Of a stretch of DNA of 64,000 nt, positions 9,989-63,277 are shown one piece after another. The DNA comes from Wenzhouxiangella sp. AB-CW3 (GTDB lineage Bacteria > Pseudomonadota > Gammaproteobacteria > Xanthomonadales > Wenzhouxiangellaceae). Within the stretch, counting starts at the first letter, position 1. The number at the start of each line of letters is the position of its first letter. A model generated the notes under the pieces. That model saw only the letters and a program-made list of their open reading frames with translations. It was not told the origin of the DNA and searched no databases. The stretch lies in contig NZ_CP061368.1 of assembly GCF_014725735.1 (NCBI RefSeq), positions 3,611,225-3,675,224 of the forward strand, written 5' to 3'. Made by a program: the position numbers and the translations under genes.

Positions 9989-10690
9989 ATGCCTGCATAT
10001 TCACGCACCGTAGCATTGATTCTGCTGACACTGGCCGTCGCTGTACCCCTGAAAGCATCGCAACAGCCTTTCAAGACCCTGGAAGAGCGGATGACCGGGC
10101 GGGAGTTTCGCGACACCGGCCTCTACAGGCTCAGCGAAGAAGAGCTTGAGACGCTGAACCAGTGGCTTCGCGAGCATTCGCTGATGCCGAAAGAGCATCA
10201 TGAAGATGCCAAGCCGTCGGCAGTACCGGACGATGCCGAACCGGCCGCAGAACAGGAGGAAGACCCTGCGCCGACGGAGCCGGTCGACCCCGAACCCACC
10301 GAGGAACTGGACGACGACACCGCGCCAACGGAACCGGTCGATGCCGAACCGCCCAGCGAACCGGCAGACGCGGATCCGCCCACGGAGCCGACCGATACCG
10401 CCCCCGCTGAGCAGGATGCCCCGGAGGAGCCGGGCGATCGCCGTGGCCTGCCTGAACAAGCCGACCGAGAGCCTATCAACAGCCGCATTGCCGGCACCTT
10501 CAATGGCTGGCACGGCAACACCGAGTTCGAGCTGAAAAACGGCATGGTCTGGCGCCAGGCCGAACGCGACACCTTCGCCGTACGGGAGATGGACAGCCCG
10601 GAGGTCACCATTCGCCCCGGCATGTTCGGGACCTGGCGGCTATCGGTGGAAGGCTACAGCAGCGCGGTGCGGGTCGAACGCATACGCTGA
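9989..10690 (+). CDS. Exported protein with Pro/Glu/Asp-rich repeats
   Basis: About 233 residues. An N-terminal signal peptide (AYSRTVALILLTLAVAVPLKAS) is followed by a short helical region (REFRDTGLYRLSEEELETLNQWL). A low-complexity linker follows, made of repeats such as PTEPVDPEPTEE and PTEPVDAEPPSEP. The C-terminal domain of about 75 residues reads FNGWHGNTEFELKNGMVWRQ and ends with TWRLSVEGYSSAVRVERIR. That last part resembles domains of unknown function seen in other exported proteobacterial proteins. The long acidic linker suggests it spans periplasm or cell wall. ATG at 9989 was preferred, with AGGACAAGG upstream as a possible ribosome site; GTG at 9986 or TTG at 9980 remain possible. 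Function unknown. Confidence 0.7.
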   Translation: MPAYSRTVALILLTLAVAVPLKASQQPFKTLEERMTGREFRDTGLYRLSEEELETLNQWLREHSLMPKEHHEDAKPSAVPDDAEPAAEQEEDPAPTEPVDPEPTEELDDDTAPTEPVDAEPPSEPADADPPTEPTDTAPAEQDAPEEPGDRRGLPEQADREPINSRIAGTFNGWHGNTEFELKNGMVWRQAERDTFAVREMDSPEVTIRPGMFGTWRLSVEGYSSAVRVERIR

Positions 10691-23408: not shown

Positions 23409-23939
23409 TCAACCCGTGCCGACCGGCGCCTCGACGGCGTCTTTTCCGGAGCCGCCGCCTTCGCGCGGCGGCAGCATGCGCAGCCAGATCAGCCACACCA
23501 CCAGCGCATCCAGAATGATCAGGGCCTGCCAGAGATAGAGGTGAAACCAGTTGAACCAGGTCATGTTCCACTGCCCCAGGTAGAACAGGCTGATGATGCG
23601 CACCAGGTTCAGACCCTGAATGGCACAGAAGCCAATCGCGAAACCGATCAGCTTGTGCTTGAGGGGGGCGGGAAAGGCAAATATGGCCGCAAACAGGATG
23701 ATCAGCGCCTCAACGCCGTTGCAGCCCGGTTCGATGCTGACGGCAAAACCGCTCTCCAGGTCGCGGATGACCTTGCCGGCCGATTCCACCCCGCTGTCGA
23801 ACAACTCGATGATGAACACGCTGACACTGGCAATGACGCTGGTAAACGGCAGAATCACGGCCTCCTGCACCGGCTGCAGCACCTCGAGGGTGAACAGCAC
23901 CAGGATCAGAACCACGAACAGTATGGAAAAACGCAGCAT
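23409..23939 (-). CDS. xrtH: Exosortase H-type transpeptidase
   Basis: A polytopic membrane protein of 176 residues with the exosortase/archaeosortase catalytic triad in the expected order: C73 in IEPGCNGVEALIILFAAI, R114 in LNLVRIISLFYLG and H133 in WFHLYLWQALI. These enzymes cut C-terminal sorting signals of exported proteins. The short form with EPGCNGVEA matches exosortase H, which works on IPTLxxWG-CTERM proteins. The start at 23939 places the first membrane helix at the N-terminus; 39 residues further upstream in the frame are not family-like. No protein with a CTERM signal is encoded in this window, so targets lie elsewhere. Confidence 0.85.
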   Translation of the reverse strand: MLRFSILFVVLILVLFTLEVLQPVQEAVILPFTSVIASVSVFIIELFDSGVESAGKVIRDLESGFAVSIEPGCNGVEALIILFAAIFAFPAPLKHKLIGFAIGFCAIQGLNLVRIISLFYLGQWNMTWFNWFHLYLWQALIILDALVVWLIWLRMLPPREGGGSGKDAVEAPVGTG

Positions 23940-24099
23940 GACAGGGTCTGGACTTCGCTTGGGCCGGAGCGCGGTTGGATCGCAAAGTGTACCGAAAGTG
24001 CCGCCAGAGCGCAGGACCAATTGCTGCGGCCTGCGCCTTGACGGCAGATCGGACATTGCGCAGACTCTGATGCTCTCAAGTCACAGGAGGTACTCGCAC

Positions 24100-29900: not shown

Positions 29901-30249
29901 CTCGGGCGGCGACTTCCTGCCCTACGCCTTCCGCGAACTCGAGATCGGCCCGCTGCTGGGCACCCGCACCTGGGGCGGCCTGATCGGCATCTTTTCCAAT
30001 CCCCCGTTTGTCGATGGCGGCGTGATGACCGTGCCGCACTTCCGTTTTGTCGATGTCGACAACAACTGGTCGGTCGAGAACGAGGGCGTGGCCCCCGACA
30101 TTCATGTCGAGCTCGACCCGGCCGCGACCAACGCCGGGCGCGACAGCCAGCTCGAACGTGCCATCGAGGAAATCCTGGACATGCTCGAGGACTACCGGGA
30201 CGATATTCCGCGCGAAGCCCCGCCCCTGCCGACCCGGCCGGGGCACTGA
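26977..30249 (+). CDS. Tricorn-like S41 protease with signal peptide
   Basis: A 1090-residue exported protease. After a signal peptide (ALLLAGLIVISSVQA) come two beta-propeller regions of WD40-like repeats (to about residue 690; for example HFSPDGRYIAFAG, WSPDGEEIAW). Next are a C1-type helical domain with MIAELMAGHNRV carrying the conserved His, a PDZ domain (about 760-860) and a C-terminal S41 core with the nucleophile S976 in AGSGGDFLPYAFRE. NEGVAPDIHVELDP supplies the conserved acidic residue. Tricorn enzymes degrade oligopeptides processively. Here the signal peptide suggests periplasmic action. A strong hairpin follows the stop. Confidence 0.93.
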   Translation: MTRKTSITLCALLLAGLIVISSVQADDTRLLRQPAISADHIAFVYAGDLWLAERDGSNPRRLTSSEAEENNPHFSPDGRYIAFAGHYEGNADVHVISVDGGQPQRLTWHPGDDIPVGWSADGSAVAFASRRETDHGRSAQLFHVPVDGGAPVRQMEARFFRGRWDASGDRLAYIDFGPAYNGLYGGNAGWRGYRGGTTPSIRILEPESGEVSAIPGERVNDILPFWLDDQVVFVSDREDQRFNLFRFDPAGNDLEQLTEQEDWDIRWAAGHTQSVIFEAGGRLHKLDLANGEQQTLTIHIQPDLPQTRPGWKNVRGNIEQAGLSPNGKRALITARGEVFTVPVEDGSTRNLTRTDGVREYTALWSPDGEEIAWVVESREGQTLVVTDQRGMGDAREYELGPDFYRLQAWDADNGRIVFTDNLLGLHAISLDDGQVTEIDRQSRQGGYDVALSPDGQWLAYTRRASNYFRDLVLYHFDDERSVTVTDGMADVASPAFSRDGKFLYLAASTNSGPRQFSLDMSSQERPYRAGLYALVLEADGESPLAPRTGDEEAGSDTNKDNDDADEARGVNIDLDGLFSRKVALPVEKGNHGNLTVAADGSLYWMQRAQPGATVEPPGESVVRYHRLRRFDFDERSASRVYSGLQSYNMSAGGEHVLVRRDNGQLAVGRTGDRLSPDNLDLSGLRMHVDPRAEWAQIFDEGWRFQRDYFYAENLHGLDWDAVYEQYRPLLDHVGRREDLNDLMVEMIAELMAGHNRVSGGDVHRPNGPSGGLLGANFSVANNRWRIDRIYTGEAWNPFVDSPLAKPGQSAREGEYILAIDGRDLSASDNLFARLQDTAGKQIVLTVGPDAGGDDAREIVVEPVSSENGMRLWHWVEKNRRLVDEATDGRVGYIYLPNTAGPGYTFFNRMFHAQLDREALIIDERANGGGQAANYIVEVLSRRHLSNWVYRQGEMSTTPMGALHGPKLMMIDQDAGSGGDFLPYAFRELEIGPLLGTRTWGGLIGIFSNPPFVDGGVMTVPHFRFVDVDNNWSVENEGVAPDIHVELDPAATNAGRDSQLERAIEEILDMLEDYRDDIPREAPPLPTRPGH

Positions 30250-30257
30250 GCCCGATA

Positions 30258-30296
30258 CCGGAGCGAACGGCCGCCCTCCCTGGCCGTTCGCTCCGG
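30258..30296 (+). terminator. Hairpin terminator after tricorn-like gene
   Basis: CCGGAGCGAACGGCC and its exact complement form a 15 bp perfect stem with a nine-base loop, followed by GTCCTTT. The T-tract is short but the stem is very stable. It separates the protease gene from the nrdAB leader. Confidence 0.75.
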
Positions 30297-30328
30297 GTCC
30301 TTTGCCTGCCCCGGGCAATTCAGAGGAC

Positions 30329-30395
30329 TTGACCGAATCCCGCCCCTGGCCCAATATATGGGCACCACGGTGCCCCAGAACACAAGATATGGGGC
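30329..30395 (+). promoter_or_regulatory. nrdAB promoter with two NrdR-like boxes
   Basis: TTGACC (30329-30334) is a plausible -35, with an AT-rich AATATAT about 18 bases downstream as -10. Two 16-base sites resembling the NrdR consensus ACACwATATATwGTGT are seen: GCCCAATATATGGGCA (30349-30364) over the -10, and ACACAAGATATGGGGC (30380-30395, about 12 of 16 matches). Their starts are 31 bp apart, three helical turns, which is the known spacing of NrdR box pairs. The second box overlaps the first hairpin of the cobalamin riboswitch. Repression by NrdR is inferred. Confidence 0.55.
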
Positions 30396-30552
30396 TAAGA
30401 GGGAATTCGGTGCCGATGGCCAGCCCATCCATTCCGAAGCTGTCCCCGCAACTGTAGGCGGCGAGCCCGCCGGACCCACACGCCACTGGTGGTCGCACCG
30501 GGAAGGCGGTCCGGACCCGGGCCATGACCCGCAAGCCAGGAAACCTGCCGTG
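30366..30552 (+). ncRNA. Cobalamin (B12) riboswitch upstream of nrdA
   Basis: Conserved blocks of the cobalamin aptamer occur in order: GGTGCCCC; AAGAGGGAATTCGGTG; GCTGTCCCCGCAACTGTA; and GCAAGCCAGGAAACCTGCC. The outer stem P1 pairs CACGG (30366-30370) with CCGTG (30548-30552), and P2 pairs GCCCC with GGGGC. Downstream, 30569-30586 and 30585-30617 contain GC-rich hairpins that may act as the expression platform; no T-tract is present. Controlling a B12-independent class Ia reductase with B12 makes sense where a B12-dependent class II enzyme (NrdJ) exists elsewhere in the genome. That is known from other bacteria. Confidence 0.88.
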
Positions 30553-30674
30553 GCGCATGCAACAGCAACCGGGCGGGGCCTCCCGGCGGCGGTGGATTGC
30601 GGCTCGTCAATGCCGCCAGTCCTTCCGACCCCATGAGCCAACCCCGCCTCCGAAAGACTGCAACGGAGGATTGT

Positions 30675-32543
30675 ATGAACCAGTTGGCTTCCGCGCTGAC
30701 CCCGCCGAGCACCGAACGTGCCCGTCGTGCCCCTGTTCCCGCTCCGCTGGGACCCCGCCCCGCACCCGAATCACTGCGCCTCGATCCCCGCGGCGACGAG
30801 CGCCTGACCGCCTTCGGACTGCAGACGCTCAAGGACCGCTACCTGCTGCCCGGCGAAACGCCGCAGGACATGTTCGCCCGGGTCGCCTGCGCCTATGCCG
30901 ACGACGCCGAACACGCCCAGCGCCTGTACGATTACATGTCGCGCCTGTGGTTCATGCCGGCCACGCCCATCCTGTCCAATGGCGGGACCCGGCGTGGCCT
31001 GCCGATCTCCTGTTTCCTCAACTCGGTGTCGGATTCGCTCGAAGGCATTGTCGGCACCTGGAACGAAAACGTCTGGCTGGCCGCCAACGGGGGTGGCATC
31101 GGCACCTACTGGGGCCAGGTCCGTTCGATTGGTGAGCAGGTCAAAGGCAGCGGCCAGACATCGGGCATCATGCCCTTCGTGCACGTCATGGACGGACTGA
31201 CACTGGCCATCTCCCAGGGCTCGCTCAGGCGCGGGTCGGCCGCCGTGTATCTCGACATTCACCATCCCGAGATCGAGGAGTTCCTGGAAATTCGCAAGCC
31301 CTCGGGCGACTTCAACCGCAAGGCGCTGAACCTGCACCACGGCATCAATGTCACCGACGAGTTCATGCAGGCGGTCACCGATGGCCGGGAATTCGGCCTC
31401 AGGAGCCCGAAAACCGGCGAGGTGCTGCGCCATGTCGATGCCCGCAGCCTGTGGCAACGCATCCTGGAGACCCGCCTGCAGACCGGCGAGCCCTACCTGC
31501 TGTTCATCGACACGGTCAACCGCGACATGGCCGCGCACCAGAAGTCGCTGGGCCTGAAGGTCTCGACCTCCAACCTGTGCTCGGAGATCACCCTGCCCAC
31601 CGGAACCGATACCGATGGCCAGGAGCGAACCGCCGTATGCTGCCTGTCATCACTCAACATCGAGACCTGGGATCAGTGGCATGGCGACGATGACTTCATC
31701 GAGGATGTCGCCCGCTTTCTCGACAACGTGCTCACGCATTTCATCGAGTCGGCGCCCGAGCAGATGGCGCGTGCCCACTACTCTGCACTTCGGGAGCGCT
31801 CGATCGGACTGGGCGTCATGGGCTTCCATTCCTTTCTTCAGGCGCGCGGCATTCCCCTGGAATCGGCACCGGCCAAGTCCTGGAACCTGAAGATCTTCCG
31901 TCATATCCGCTCGGCCATGGATGCCGCATCGACTGCCCTGGCCGAGGAACGTGGCCCGTGCCCGGATGCGCTGGCCGCCGGCGCCCGTGAACGCTTCAGT
32001 CACAAGCTCGCCATCGCGCCGACGGCCTCGATATCCATCATCTGCGGCGGCGTCAGCGCCTGCATCGAGCCGGCACCGGCCAACATCTACACGCACAAGA
32101 CCCTGTCGGGATCATTCACCGTGCGCAACCGCCACCTGCAGACGCTGCTGGCCGAGCGCGGGCAGGACACACCGGACACCTGGGCATCGATTCTCGAGCA
32201 CGAGGGTTCGGTGCAACACCTGGACTGCCTGGACGAAGACGAGAAGCTGGTGTTTCGCACCGCCTTCGAGATCGATCAGCGCTGGATCATCGAACTGGCC
32301 GCCGATCGCGCACCGCTGATCTGCCAGAGCCAGTCGCTGAACCTGTTCCTGCCGGGCAACATCGACAAATGGGACCTGCACATGCTGCACTGGTCGGCCT
32401 GGAAGCGCGGCATAAAGAGCCTGTACTACTGCCGCTCAAAGGCCATTCAGCGCGCCGGCTTTGCCGGCCAGCTCGGTGCCGCCGAACACACCGGTGGCCA
32501 GCAGCCGGCCACCGACTACGAGGAGTGCCTGGCATGTCAGTGA
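30675..32543 (+). CDS. nrdA: Ribonucleotide reductase class Ia alpha subunit
   Basis: Large subunit of aerobic ribonucleotide reductase, 622 residues. Active-site residues are in place: C113 in PISCFLNSV, N300-C302-E304 in STSNLCSEI (thiyl radical cysteine), C323 in VCCLSSLN, the radical-transfer pair YY in IKSLYYCRSKA and the redox-active C-terminal CLAC. It is shorter than the E. coli enzyme and begins with a proline-rich stretch, with no N-terminal ATP-cone, so dATP activity control at this site seems absent. Start ATG 30675 has GGAGGA upstream. It overlaps nrdB by 10 bp and lies behind the B12 riboswitch. Confidence 0.94.
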   Translation: MNQLASALTPPSTERARRAPVPAPLGPRPAPESLRLDPRGDERLTAFGLQTLKDRYLLPGETPQDMFARVACAYADDAEHAQRLYDYMSRLWFMPATPILSNGGTRRGLPISCFLNSVSDSLEGIVGTWNENVWLAANGGGIGTYWGQVRSIGEQVKGSGQTSGIMPFVHVMDGLTLAISQGSLRRGSAAVYLDIHHPEIEEFLEIRKPSGDFNRKALNLHHGINVTDEFMQAVTDGREFGLRSPKTGEVLRHVDARSLWQRILETRLQTGEPYLLFIDTVNRDMAAHQKSLGLKVSTSNLCSEITLPTGTDTDGQERTAVCCLSSLNIETWDQWHGDDDFIEDVARFLDNVLTHFIESAPEQMARAHYSALRERSIGLGVMGFHSFLQARGIPLESAPAKSWNLKIFRHIRSAMDAASTALAEERGPCPDALAAGARERFSHKLAIAPTASISIICGGVSACIEPAPANIYTHKTLSGSFTVRNRHLQTLLAERGQDTPDTWASILEHEGSVQHLDCLDEDEKLVFRTAFEIDQRWIIELAADRAPLICQSQSLNLFLPGNIDKWDLHMLHWSAWKRGIKSLYYCRSKAIQRAGFAGQLGAAEHTGGQQPATDYEECLACQ

Positions 32544-33631
32544 TCGACCCCAACACCAATCCACGCAAGCTGCTCGGTACCGGCCGGGTCGGCCTGCTCG
32601 AGTCGACCGGCACCTACGATGTCGAACGCTACGGCTGGGCCTACGAATTCTGGAAACGCCAGCAGCAGACCCACTGGATGGGCGAGGAAGTACCGCTGGG
32701 CGATGACATCAAGGACTGGACCGGCGATCGCCTGAGCGAGGCAGAACGCTCGCTGCTCACACAGGTGTTCCGTTTCTTCACTCAGTCCGATGTGGAAGTT
32801 TCGGACAACTACATGAAGCGCTACATCCCGATCTTCCAGCCACTGGAAATCCAGATGATGATGGCCGCGTTCACCAACATGGAAACCGTGCACATCGACG
32901 CCTACGCCCTGCTGCTCAAGACCCTGGGCATGCCGCAGACCGAGTTCGAGGCGTTTCGCGATTACCGGCAGATGAAGGCCAAGGCCGACTACATGCAGAC
33001 CTTCGGCGTCGACACGGTTGCCGACGTCTCGCGCACGCTGGCCATGTTCGGTGCATTTACCGAGGGCATGAGCCTGTTTGCCAGCTTCGCCATGCTGCTC
33101 AATTTCCCGCGCTTCAACAAGATGAAGGGCATGGGCCAGATCGTGAGCTGGTCGGTACGCGACGAGTCGCTGCACTGCGAGGGCGTGATCCGGCTGTTTC
33201 ATGAATGGAACCGTGAAACCGGCGCCCTGACCGCGGCAGTGCGCGATGACATCATTGACGTCGCCCGAACCATGGTATGCCTGGAAGAAAACTTTGTCGA
33301 TCTCGCTTTCGAACTGGGCGATATCGAAGGCATGAGCGCCTATGACATCAAGCGCTACGTGCGCTATATCGCCGACTGGCGACTGGCCCAGCTCAAACTG
33401 CCCACCGTGTTCGGCTGTTTTGCGCAGGAAGAGGGCAGCTACCGCGCGCTGACGGCCCACCCCCTGCCCTGGCTGGTCGAGATTCTCAACGGCGTGGAGT
33501 TTGCCAACTTCTTCGAGCAGCGAGCCACCGAGTACGCCAAGGCAGCAACCCGCGGGCACTGGGACGGTGAACAGGGGGTCTGGTCGATGTTCGATCAGAT
33601 GCACCGGCGCGCCCCGCACTCCACGACCTAA
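32534..33631 (+). CDS. nrdB: Ribonucleotide reductase class Ia beta subunit
   Basis: Radical-generating small subunit, 365 residues. The diiron/tyrosyl-radical motif is seen as E117, H120 and Y124 in NMETVHIDAYALLL, matching the E-x2-H-x3-Y of E. coli NrdB. A second ligand set lies in SWSVRDESLHCEGVIRLF. The presence of Y124 supports a classic tyrosyl-radical class Ia enzyme rather than a radical-free or Mn/Fe type. No ATP-cone is fused at the N-terminus either. The start overlaps the end of nrdA by 10 bp, so the two are coupled. The stop codon TAA is directly abutted by a MITE-like element. Confidence 0.95.
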   Translation: MSVIDPNTNPRKLLGTGRVGLLESTGTYDVERYGWAYEFWKRQQQTHWMGEEVPLGDDIKDWTGDRLSEAERSLLTQVFRFFTQSDVEVSDNYMKRYIPIFQPLEIQMMMAAFTNMETVHIDAYALLLKTLGMPQTEFEAFRDYRQMKAKADYMQTFGVDTVADVSRTLAMFGAFTEGMSLFASFAMLLNFPRFNKMKGMGQIVSWSVRDESLHCEGVIRLFHEWNRETGALTAAVRDDIIDVARTMVCLEENFVDLAFELGDIEGMSAYDIKRYVRYIADWRLAQLKLPTVFGCFAQEEGSYRALTAHPLPWLVEILNGVEFANFFEQRATEYAKAATRGHWDGEQGVWSMFDQMHRRAPHSTT

Positions 33632-60266: not shown

Positions 60267-60420
60267 GCGCGTGCACTCCCTGATCTGGTCCGGCGCCATC
60301 GGAACTTGGCGTGACATTGCCTGATAGTCATACTAGATAAACCATAGGGGCATTTCAAATCAGGCTTTCCGGACTTGACCTGACTCGACCACTTGCGGTC
60401 TCATGGTTGTTCAATAACCG

Positions 60421-60547
60421 ACTCCGAGCACATCTGCCTAAAGCCGCAACCGGCCAGGGTGGCTGTGCCGCTGCAGGCGGGACTTTCCGTCCGGGCAGCC
60501 AGGGTGGTCGCCGGAAACGGCACCGCCTTCCGGCCTTGAAAAGGAGT
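60421..60547 (+). ncRNA. Molybdenum cofactor riboswitch before moaA
   Basis: The leader matches the Moco RNA architecture. An outer stem pairs ACTCC (60421-60425) with GGAGT (60543-60547), so the Shine-Dalgarno sequence of moaA lies in the stem. Near the 3' side CAGGGTGG, a GGAAAC-loop hairpin and CCGCCTTCCGG occur in the same order as CAGGG, hairpin and GCCUCCCG in the E. coli moaA leader, followed by TTGAAAAGG. Moco binding is expected to block moaA translation. A covariance-model search would decide this. Confidence 0.68.
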
Positions 60548-60551
60548 GGCA

Positions 60552-61529
60552 ATGACACAGCTCAAAGACGGCTTCGGCCGCCGCTTTTCCTACTTGCGGC
60601 TGTCGGTGACCGACGTTTGCAACTTTCGTTGCGAGTACTGCCTGCCCAATGGCTACCAGGGCAAGCCCACGGGCTTTCTCGACCACGACGAGATCCGCCG
60701 GCTGGTCACCGCCTTCGCCGAACTTGGCACCTGGAAGATCCGCCTGACCGGCGGCGAGCCCACCGTGCGCAAGGACTTCCTCGACATCGTGCGCACCGTG
60801 CGCGCGGCACCGGGCGTGCAGCGCATCGCCATGACCACCAATGCCTTCCGCCTGGCACAGGATGCAGCGAAACTCAAGGACGCCGGCATGGATGCGGTCA
60901 ACATCAGCCTGGATGGACTGGATGCCGAGCATTTCAAGCGCATTACCGGTGACAAGCGCTTCGACAAGGTCATGGCCGGCATCGACGCGGCCCTGGCGCA
61001 CGGTTTCGATGCGGTCAAGATCAACACGGTACTGCTGAAGGGCCTCAACGACGAGCAGTTACCGGCGTTTTTCGAGTTCGTGCGCAAGCGCCCGGTCAGC
61101 GTGCGCTTTATCGAACTGATGCGCACCGGCGACAACGGCGAGTATTTCGAAAAGCGCCATGTCGGCGGGCAACTGGTGCGTGACCAGCTCGACGCCGCCG
61201 GCTGGACGCCGATGGAACGCGGCGAGGCCGACGGCCCGGCCATCGAGTACCGGCATCCCGAGCACGCCGGACGCATCGGCATCATCGCCCCTTACGCGCC
61301 GGGCTTCTGCGACACCTGCAACCGCCTGCGCGTGACCGCGCGCGGCGGGCTGCGACTGTGCCTGTTCGGCAACGGCACCGGCAACCTCAGGCCACTACTG
61401 CAAAGCGACGAGCAGAAGGAAGAACTGAAAGCCACCGTACTGACCGCCCTGTTCGGCAAGCGCGTCTCGCACTTCCTGCACGACGGCGACTACGGCGACA
61501 CCCCCCACTTGGCGATGACGGGAGGGTAG
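60552..61529 (+). CDS. moaA: GTP 3',8-cyclase MoaA
   Basis: A radical-SAM enzyme for the first step of molybdopterin synthesis. About 325 residues. The N-terminal 4Fe-4S site CNFRCEYC (C-x3-C-x2-C) binds SAM, and the C-terminal 4Fe-4S site is in GFCDTCNRLRVTARGGLRLCLFG. LRLTGGEPT-like RLTGGEPTVRKDF and the final GG, needed for activity in studied MoaA proteins, are present (AMTGG). ATG 60552 is preferred over GTG 60546, because AAGGAG lies directly upstream. Confidence 0.95.
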   Translation: MTQLKDGFGRRFSYLRLSVTDVCNFRCEYCLPNGYQGKPTGFLDHDEIRRLVTAFAELGTWKIRLTGGEPTVRKDFLDIVRTVRAAPGVQRIAMTTNAFRLAQDAAKLKDAGMDAVNISLDGLDAEHFKRITGDKRFDKVMAGIDAALAHGFDAVKINTVLLKGLNDEQLPAFFEFVRKRPVSVRFIELMRTGDNGEYFEKRHVGGQLVRDQLDAAGWTPMERGEADGPAIEYRHPEHAGRIGIIAPYAPGFCDTCNRLRVTARGGLRLCLFGNGTGNLRPLLQSDEQKEELKATVLTALFGKRVSHFLHDGDYGDTPHLAMTGG

Positions 61530-61622: not shown

Positions 61623-62120
61623 ATGAACGACAACCGACAGCACTACAAAATGATCGACGTTGGCGATAAAGCCATCACCCGCCGTGTCGCCGTGGCCTCG
61701 GGGCGGATTGTGATGAACGCCGAGACCTTTGCCATGGTGCGCGATGGCACGCTGCCCAAGGGTGACCCGCTCAGGCTGGCCGAGGTGGCCGGGGTGCTGG
61801 CGGCGAAGAAGACGCCGGAGATCATTCCACTCTGTCACCCGCTGGGGCTGGACCAGGTGCGCGTGGCATTCCGGCTCGATGCAGCCGACTCGGCAGTCAC
61901 GGCCTTCTGCCAGGCCTCGTCCTCGGCGCGCACCGGGGTGGAGATGGAGGCACTGGCCGGAGTCAACGGGGCACTGCTGACCATCTGGGACCTGGCCAAG
62001 CAGGTCCAGCCCGACCTGGCCATCGAGGGAATTCGGCTGCTGCTCAAGACCGGGGGCAAGTCCGGCCGCTACGAGCATCCCGACGGCATCGGCGAGCTGC
62101 CCGAAGGCTTCGGTTCGTGA
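61623..62120 (+). CDS. moaC: Cyclic pyranopterin monophosphate synthase MoaC
   Basis: Completes cyclic pyranopterin monophosphate formation after MoaA. 165 residues, with the family signatures MIDVGDKAITRRVAVASG, IPLCHPLGLDQVRV, SSARTGVEMEALAGV and LLLKTGGKSGRY. It stands 94 bases after moaA, with an inverted-repeat element between. The stop overlaps the start of the molybdate transporter by four bases. Confidence 0.95.
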   Translation: MNDNRQHYKMIDVGDKAITRRVAVASGRIVMNAETFAMVRDGTLPKGDPLRLAEVAGVLAAKKTPEIIPLCHPLGLDQVRVAFRLDAADSAVTAFCQASSSARTGVEMEALAGVNGALLTIWDLAKQVQPDLAIEGIRLLLKTGGKSGRYEHPDGIGELPEGFGS

Positions 62121-63277
62121 ACCGCTCTACGACCAGGAGCTCACCGTGGCACGGTGACCTGACCGGCGCCTTTGCCGATGGTGCGGTACTTTTCCCATTG
62201 CTGCTGGCGCTGGCCTGGCAAACCGGGGCTTCGGCCGCAATCATGCTGGCGACCACCGGGGCAGCCTACCTGGTGACCGGCTGGCTGTTTCGCCTGCCCA
62301 TTCCCGTTCAGCCACTGAAATCCCTGTCGGTCATGGCCATCGCCGCCGGCGCCAGCGCCCAGGAACTGCAGCTGGCCGGTCTGGCGCTGGGGCTGATCTA
62401 TTTTTCCATTGCCTGGCTGCCGGTCAATCGTTTCTCCAATCGGATCCCGCTGGTGCTGGTTCATGGCTTCCAGCTCGGTCTGGGCATCATGCTGATGCTG
62501 GCGGCATTGCGCATGCTGGGGGCTTCACCCGCCGAACTGGCCGTGGTCGTGGCGGCCGCCATCACGCTGGTACTGATCACCCAGCTGACACGCTGGCCCC
62601 TGCTCGGTCTGGTGGCAGCCGGGGGACTGGTCTGGGGTCTGTTTCACGCCGTACCGGTCAGCGGTGATGTGGCCGACTCCGGCATCCGGGCCAGCATCAT
62701 CGCCCTGATGGTCCTGCCGCAGATTGCCCTGACACTGACCAATTCGGTGCTGGGCACGGAACGGGCGGCTCGGGATTACTATGGCGAGCGCGCCGAACGC
62801 GTCACTCCGCGCCGATTGTTGCAGTCTCTGGGCATCGGCAACCTGGTAGTCGGCACCTTCGGGGGCATGCCCTACTGCCACGGCTCCGGCGGCGTGACCG
62901 CCCACTATCGCGGTGGCAGCCGTACCTGGCGCTCCAACGCCATCATCGGAATCACGTTGCTGGCCATGAGCGCCATCCTGGTCGCTGGCGGCGGTGGACT
63001 ACCGGAGTATCCGGCCATCCTGCAGGCCCTGCTGATCGGCGTGATCGGCTGGTTTCATTTTCAACTCGCCCGGCCGAGCTGGCAGCTCATGCACAGCCGC
63101 GCCGTGCTGTTGCTGATGGGTGGCGCCGCGCTGGTGTTTGCCAACATGCTGGCGGTGCTGGTTGTCGGCACCGCCGCGCTGCTGATCGCGTACCAGCTCG
63201 GCTACCGCTTTCCCGTACCCCGGGCCATCGGCGGCGATGGCTCCACTCCCTCCAGTCCGCAACAGGCAGGTCCCTGA
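62117..63277 (+). CDS. MOT1-type molybdate transporter
   Basis: A 386-residue inner-membrane protein with about ten hydrophobic segments. The N-terminal GDLTGAFADGAVLFPLLLAL, the conserved LPIPVQPLKSLSVMAIAAG and the later GGMPYCHGSGGVTAHYRGGSRT match the two MOT1 signature motifs. MOT1 proteins are high-affinity molybdate transporters, originally distinguished from sulphate permeases of the SLC26 family. Its place inside the moa operon, between moaC and moaD with four-base and one-base overlaps, fits molybdate uptake for Moco synthesis. Confidence 0.88.
   Translation: MNRSTTRSSPWHGDLTGAFADGAVLFPLLLALAWQTGASAAIMLATTGAAYLVTGWLFRLPIPVQPLKSLSVMAIAAGASAQELQLAGLALGLIYFSIAWLPVNRFSNRIPLVLVHGFQLGLGIMLMLAALRMLGASPAELAVVVAAAITLVLITQLTRWPLLGLVAAGGLVWGLFHAVPVSGDVADSGIRASIIALMVLPQIALTLTNSVLGTERAARDYYGERAERVTPRRLLQSLGIGNLVVGTFGGMPYCHGSGGVTAHYRGGSRTWRSNAIIGITLLAMSAILVAGGGGLPEYPAILQALLIGVIGWFHFQLARPSWQLMHSRAVLLLMGGAALVFANMLAVLVVGTAALLIAYQLGYRFPVPRAIGGDGSTPSSPQQAGP

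Follow-up and report, generated by a model that had tools for sequence, protein, structure and literature searches.

The nrdAB leader of Wenzhouxiangella sp. AB-CW3 carries a full-length cobalamin riboswitch on which an NrdR-type operator pair appears to be superimposed, with one predicted box over the promoter −10 element and one in the DNA that encodes the P2 stem-loop of the aptamer. The operon encodes a B12-free ribonucleotide reductase (RNR), and the same genome encodes the B12-dependent enzyme NrdJ. Judged from sequence comparisons, nrdAB is probably a backup RNR under dual-input control, in which repression by B12 would be joined by an input from NrdR. Coordinates without a contig or locus label refer to the window, the whole 64,000-nt stretch of DNA that was analysed.

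A cobalamin riboswitch precedes a class I nrdAB operon

A cmscan search of the 64-kb window against Rfam returned three matches over the gathering score, the best-scoring of which is the cobalamin riboswitch RF00174 in the nrdAB leader, aligned over its full length (model positions 1-189; gathering cut-off 31.5 bits). The initial annotation had placed such a riboswitch at 30366-30552, a segment that lies inside the Rfam match, and its proposal is borne out. The nrdA start codon is 109 nt past the final base of the match, and nrdA and nrdB are the next genes on the strand.

30351..30566, + strand: cobalamin riboswitch aptamer (RF00174), 118.3 bits, E 4.8e-29
30373..30394, + strand: aptamer P2 stem-loop, from the Rfam alignment
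30675..32543, + strand: nrdA, class I RNR alpha subunit, 622 aa (NF006577, 997 bits; Pfam PF02867 and PF00317)
32534..33631, + strand: nrdB, class I RNR beta subunit, 365 aa (NF007186, 511 bits; PF00268)

The nrdA and nrdB families both score over their cut-offs, which defines the enzyme as class I. In NrdA, Pfam (E up to 0.001) matched the barrel and all-alpha domains only, PF02867 and PF00317, and no ATP-cone. The enzyme had been labelled class Ia; class I holds, and the Ia label is not supported, as NrdA lacks an ATP-cone match.

Elsewhere in the window, a Moco (molybdenum/tungsten) riboswitch (60410-60560, 78.4 bits) lies directly 5' of a MoaA-like gene with radical SAM and Mob_synth_C domains; open reading frames near it span 60546-61529 and 62117-63277, a MOT1-type molybdate transporter gene follows downstream, and a molybdopterin oxidoreductase is encoded close by. 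Exosortase H is encoded on the − strand at 23409-24056 (TIGR04177, 200 bits), and a short tandem repeat array of 27/54 bp occupies 10205-10390.

NrdR-like boxes lie over the −10 element and the P2-encoding DNA

A sigma-70-like promoter lies at the 5' end of the aptamer, and two NrdR-like boxes follow from its −10 element onward.

30329..30357, + strand: sigma-70-like promoter, −35 TTGACC, 17-nt spacer, −10 CAATAT, kept in 13 of 13 family nrdAB leaders
30349..30364, unstranded: weak NrdR-like box 1, covering the −10 element; 0.6 bits by the matrix from nrdJ leaders; box 2 follows at a distance of 31 bp
30380..30395, unstranded: strong NrdR-like box 2, within the part that encodes loop L2 and the 3' strand of P2; 15.8 bits

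All 13 family leaders share the promoter pattern TTGAC-N, 17 nt (18 in one) and CAnnAT, with an identity to the window of 0.99 in the −35 element, 0.92 in the −10 element and 0.44 in the spacer. A generic scan that required 9 of 12 consensus matches listed no promoter at 30329-30357.

The boxes were scored with a palindromic matrix built from the 21 first boxes of nrdJ leaders. The sites for this matrix were chosen with an NrdR-box consensus, which makes the two interdependent, and second boxes as well as box 1 score low by construction because the matrix derives from strong first boxes. The nrdJ leader of the genome contains two NrdR-like boxes 32 bp apart. By the consensus criterion a pair is present in 15 of 20 further family nrdJ leaders versus 0 of 195 window pieces, and of the four spacings tried (30-33), 32 is the best in 21 of 21 nrdJ leaders.

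Box 2 is the top 16-mer of the whole window, with the runner-up at 9.3 bits. The pair 30349/30380 sums to 16.3 and is the window's best; the next independent pair, at −7.9, is 24 bits lower. C4 and G13 of the 16-mer, which we equate with the conserved G-C pairs by our own mapping of positions in the part of PMC9110341 consulted, are found in box 2 of 13 of 13 family members and in box 1 of nine, the window included. Across the 13 leaders the aptamer match begins 2-5 nt after the start of box 1, the spacing is 31-32 bp, and pair scores range from 9.2 to 29.9. Every member has a predicted P2 hairpin that overlaps box 2; the score of box 1 is negative in five. The account given in the initial annotation omitted this NrdR-type operator overlapping the switch.

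A cobalamin riboswitch of the usual kind, without any input from NrdR and with the P2 match as a relic or a product of chance, would explain the gene linkage through riboswitch control alone, and the weakness of box 1 fits such a reading. We consider it unlikely, given that the 30380 site ranks first in the window, that the pair leads by 24 bits, and that L2, at an identity to the window of 0.82, surpasses the 5' strand of P2 itself (0.64) in conservation; other variable parts of the leader range from 0.34 to 0.50.

Shuffled sequences and other cobalamin switches as controls

RF00174 lies upstream of nrdA, on the same strand, in 43 of the 80 loci of NrdA relatives that were kept; ten of these are Wenzhouxiangella-type and the 33 others are nearly all labelled as alphaproteobacterial taxa. 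Because an absolute score threshold depends on base composition, the in-register pair was compared with 400 dinucleotide shuffles of each region. In the family nrdAB switches it was beaten by none of the 400 shuffles in 13 of 13 cases. The alphaproteobacterial nrdAB switches gave p up to 0.01 in 18 of 33 and up to 0.05 in 29 of 33, and the btuB and metE control switches gave p up to 0.05 in 0 of 37. The P2 boxes of the family exceed every background position and all 300 region shuffles in 11 of 13 members, with p 0.010 in the other two. Shuffles and control switches alike speak against a chance match in P2.

By absolute score, an in-register pair above −7.9 is present in 12 of the 33 alphaproteobacterial switches (above 0 in eight of these) and in 0 of 37 controls (best −8.4). 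Five more have a pair in another register and 16 have none, which leaves 21 of 33 without an in-register pair above −7.9, and scores near this value are weak evidence, as a switchless Asticcacaulis leader reaches −5.1 within 1.1 kb. The many relatives that lack a pair by this measure favour the reading without NrdR; the shuffle comparison did not lower the odds of an NrdR input. Four of the five with another register (L060, L066, L047 and L024) have box 1 of their best pair at −33 or −34, 31-32 bp further upstream, and in these the −10 box is partnered upstream rather than in P2.

An either-or relation of riboswitch and NrdR pair was considered and rejected: with the consensus, pairs were found in 2 of 43 switch-bearing versus 4 of 33 switchless leaders (Fisher p 0.39) among the 76 nrdA leaders whose upstream sequence reaches 500 nt or more, the 4 of 80 loci with <500 nt having been skipped. 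The consensus alone thus gave no association of switch and pair, which counts for the reading without NrdR. Nor did it give a pair at any of the 13 family promoters, where the scan stopped ~20 nt into the aptamer, short of box 2.

B12-dependent counterparts and distribution over the family

The source genome is a single contig of 3,844,697 bases and 99.99% complete. Class II NrdJ, whose gene had been predicted to lie elsewhere in the genome, is encoded at C1:1834370-1837402 (TIGR02504, 561.4 bits, with an adjoining match in frame). NrdR is also encoded (TIGR00244, 191.9 bits), and no NrdD was found in this genome. RF00174 has three matches in the genome, ahead of nrdAB, metE and a BtuB-like receptor gene, the receptor itself matching at 392 bits, under the equivalog cut-off of 599.7. 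The metE gene with its own cobalamin riboswitch (L009:5821-8181) lies ~47 kb from nrdAB, and MetH is encoded as two adjacent frames of 362 + 929 aa (C1:2557424-2560968). With metH for metE and nrdJ for nrdAB, both switch-controlled B12-free enzymes have a B12-dependent counterpart.

The nrdJ frame (L008:5305-8574, equal to C1:1834304-1837573) contains an intein with a LAGLIDADG domain at residues ~322-696, which starts with Cys and ends with His-Asn before Cys. A separate open reading frame 3' of nrdJ (L008:8590-9348) matches the C-terminal part of the B12-dependent RNR model plus a TSCPD domain, and the enzyme seems to be split over two frames. As judged by break-up of the nrdJ match, NrdJ inteins occur in 6 of 13 nrdAB genomes versus 3 of the 30 without nrdAB (Fisher p 0.014, kinship ignored); two of these 30 had no nrdJ match. 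In one genome (G085:C283) the nrdJ frame has 1574 aa and the match breaks at model positions ~109 and ~282, perhaps owing to two inteins.

Over the 43 genomes of the family, nrdB is present in 13 (7 of the 25 near-complete ones), nrdA in the same 13, and RF00174 lies upstream of nrdA on the same strand in all 13, so that the linkage of operon and switch is fixed. nrdJ scores over the cut-off in 37 of 43 genomes, including all 13 with nrdAB; of the remaining six, two have no match and four have sub-cut-off matches. The earlier interpretation, a B12 switch acting on a B12-independent RNR, is supported by this combination of switch, nrdAB and nrdJ in 13 of 13 nrdAB genomes. MetE is found in one of the 43 genomes, that of the window. 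No cobI/cbiL match exceeds the cut-off in any of the 43; weak matches in 16 genomes fall in frames of 286-534 aa, which are presumably siroheme-type methyltransferases. The 40 stretches around switches in relatives comprise 35 with a BtuB match, two with nrdA and three too short to judge. By its gene content the family looks like a B12 scavenger in which NrdJ is the core enzyme and nrdAB an accessory, B12-repressed backup; most members appear to lack the class I enzyme and to depend on NrdJ. The family offers a clean natural experiment, in which the optional nrdAB arrived with its switch in each of 13 of 43 genomes.

Possible translational control by the expression platform

Four elements of the leader may link the aptamer to the nrdA ribosome-binding site.

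30443..30449, + strand: loop L5, UCCCCGC, kissing-loop partner, complementary to L13
30569..30586, + strand: P13-L13 hairpin CCGGGCGGGGCCUCCCGG, a motif in 13 of 13 family leaders
30642..30652, + strand: linker CCCCGCCUCCG, by folding a possible alternative L13 partner (30642-30648) that overlaps the anti-Shine-Dalgarno (30647-30652)
30664..30669, + strand: Shine-Dalgarno CGGAGG, pairs with 30647-30652 (sequence and local fold)

The complementarity of L13 (GCGGGG) to L5 (UCCCCGC) is kept in 13 of 13 family leaders, with a duplex energy of −12.1 kcal/mol in the window and −9.4 to −12.3 over the 13; GGGCGGGG is present in 12 of 12 alphaproteobacterial leaders inspected by eye, of 33. Pairing of the Shine-Dalgarno with the anti-Shine-Dalgarno has a mean z of −0.97 over the 13 leaders. 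The candidate antisequestor pairing of L13 with the linker did no better than shuffles (mean z −0.27). The modelled fraction of unpaired Shine-Dalgarno changes in the expected direction, averaging 0.33 in the free state, 0.14 with L13 held and 0.46 with L13 paired to the linker. The window itself hardly follows this trend, its Shine-Dalgarno staying hidden in each modelled state (0.01, 0.00 and 0.15), and two of the 13 leaders run against it, with greater access when L13 is held. Unconstrained folding was uninformative, at z ~ −1 for both the 350-nt leader and the 135-nt platform, and the leader so folded does not adopt the aptamer structure.

No intrinsic-terminator-like site was found in 30200-30720 and the Shine-Dalgarno is paired upstream; translational control is therefore favoured, and we hold translational repression by the riboswitch to be somewhat more likely than not, with weak support from folding. 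Control of transcription instead, by Rho-dependent or intrinsic termination, is conceivable: the in-silico support for sequestration of the ribosome site is modest, and coenzyme B12 is reported to control transcription of Streptomyces nrdABS in the part of PMC4991794 consulted. The empty terminator scan and the upstream partner of the Shine-Dalgarno in the local fold make this mode doubtful here.

Relatives of nrdAB and likely lateral transfer

The nearest relatives by NrdA are Wenzhouxiangella-type metagenome genomes (85-86%), and outside the family the window NrdA is closest to alphaproteobacterial proteins. An NrdA tree of 72 rows, rooted at the midpoint only, was built from 69 of the 80 loci plus the window and two family members, with the other 11 loci omitted. 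In it the 13 family members form a single clade (100/100) flanked by two alphaproteobacterial groups. This position makes lateral transfer likely, in one direction or the other.

In 13 of 13 family nrdA switches the profile of alphaproteobacterial nrdA switches scores above that of family btuB switches. Held-out controls were positive in 30 of 30 alphaproteobacterial switches (30 of the 33 were used, three weak ones being omitted) and in 0 of 36 btuB switches; the genome's own metE switch was also positive (+41 bits), so the comparison separates btuB from the rest and is no proof of nrdA ancestry. It replaced a regex-based P13 comparison with btuB switches, which was dropped as its anchor was found in only 13 of 35, none with an nrdA-type P13.

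Both the kinship of NrdA and the profile result would fit a degenerate switch that came along with a laterally acquired operon and has lost its regulatory role. This is very improbable in view of the 118-bit full-length match and of the pattern of conservation, with an identity to the window of 0.96 in the B12 core and an intact L13:L5 complementarity while the linker has diverged to 0.40.

Over the 80 loci, nrdJ accompanies 41 of 43 switch-bearing and 29 of 37 switchless nrdA genes (p 0.038, kinship ignored). The two switch-bearing genomes without a full nrdJ match contain sub-cut-off pieces that look like nrdJ cut at contig ends, and one switchless locus without nrdJ has a leader of only 78 nt. 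Seven plasmid-borne nrdA leaders were taken among the matches listed (40 of 1539 records with a match), and five have the switch: three from Azospirillum, one from Bradyrhizobium and one from Georgenia; no RF00174 match was found in the Asticcacaulis and Acidiphilium leaders. In-register pair scores are 13.3, 7.9 and 7.1 for Azospirillum and −5.0 (p 0.0075) for Bradyrhizobium. In the actinobacterium Georgenia (L160) the boxes lie at −38 and −7, where they reach no further than the 5' edge of the aptamer, and the register of P2 holds no pair (p 0.077). Near one alphaproteobacterial nrdA leader whose own switch match is weak (34.4 bits), a second, strong cobalamin riboswitch was found on the opposite strand (L055:1292-1487, − strand, 129.2 bits).

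A proposed model for dual-input control of nrdAB

We propose that transcription starts near 30364, a position suggested by the promoter. When dATP is plentiful, NrdR would occupy the two boxes, 31-32 bp apart over the −10 element and the first transcribed bases, and block initiation. Once transcription passes NrdR, the same first bases would fold as aptamer P1-P2. With the B12 coenzyme bound, L5 would capture L13 and the linker would hide the nrdA ribosome site; no NrdAB would be made and NrdJ would take over. When B12 is absent, L13 may instead pair with the linker, which would make the ribosome site accessible.

Taken together, the P2-encoding DNA would serve as the downstream NrdR half-operator, aptamer and operator would have co-evolved, and an AND logic would allow NrdAB only when dNTPs and B12 are both low, the block of promoter, operator, switch and operon having passed between Alphaproteobacteria and a B12-scavenging gammaproteobacterial family. 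We hold this combined reading to be somewhat better than an even bet. One short stretch may thus read two signals, B12 and DNA building blocks. If the overlap is real, a riboswitch hairpin would be constrained by a DNA-binding repressor, and some variation in P2 arms would be due to operators and not to RNA function. NrdR could also take over the dATP feedback that is presumably missing from an NrdA with no ATP-cone.

Comparison with known systems

Control of B12-free reductases by B12 switches where NrdJ exists is a published principle, as the consulted portions of PMC545781 and PMC4991794 state. According to the text used from PMC9110341, NrdR tetramers with dATP and ATP bind two boxes about three helical turns apart, often over the polymerase site; the layout in the window resembles that arrangement and would fit repression of initiation. 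In the openly licensed literature on NrdR, nrdAB riboswitches and aptamer-embedded operators, as far as its accessible text goes, we found no report of an NrdR operator box inside a riboswitch aptamer.

Streptomyces coelicolor nrdABS (Borovok 2006, as cited in PMC4991794) resembles the window in that a B12 riboswitch precedes class I nrdAB, nrdJ provides the B12-dependent enzyme (PMC4991794) and NrdR boxes are reported at the nrdAB promoter (PMC9110341), to go by the sections consulted, which do not say whether these boxes reach into the aptamer; it differs in being an actinobacterium and in that control is reported on transcription (PMC4991794). Propionibacterium acnes likewise combines a cobalamin riboswitch with an NrdR box on nrdAB, and its nrdRJ, like nrdJ of the window's genome, has a pair of boxes and no annotated switch; unlike the window, it has a single box over the nrdAB promoter, and the part of PMC3848588 consulted mentions none in the aptamer. 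Delta-proteobacteria with NrdJ likewise have B12 elements before a B12-independent isozyme, for which repression is predicted while B12 is available to NrdJ, but the genes are nrdDG instead of nrdAB, and no NrdR overlap is described in the section of PMC545781 used. Bacillus methanolicus has a comparable three-part regulon, with switches before cobalamin genes, metE and nrdAB; it is a Bacillus, cobalamin biosynthesis and transport genes stand in place of btuB, and the consulted text of PMC4342826 describes no NrdR overlap. Mycobacterium tuberculosis nrdF2 has a pair of NrdR sites in the transcribed leader, at +15.5/+47.5 and 32 bp apart, resembling the present layout, but the genes are class Ib and the passages drawn on from PMC4428469 mention no riboswitch. 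A B12 switch on a B12-free RNR is thus already known, and the NrdR-type operator that appears to be superimposed on it would be the new element.
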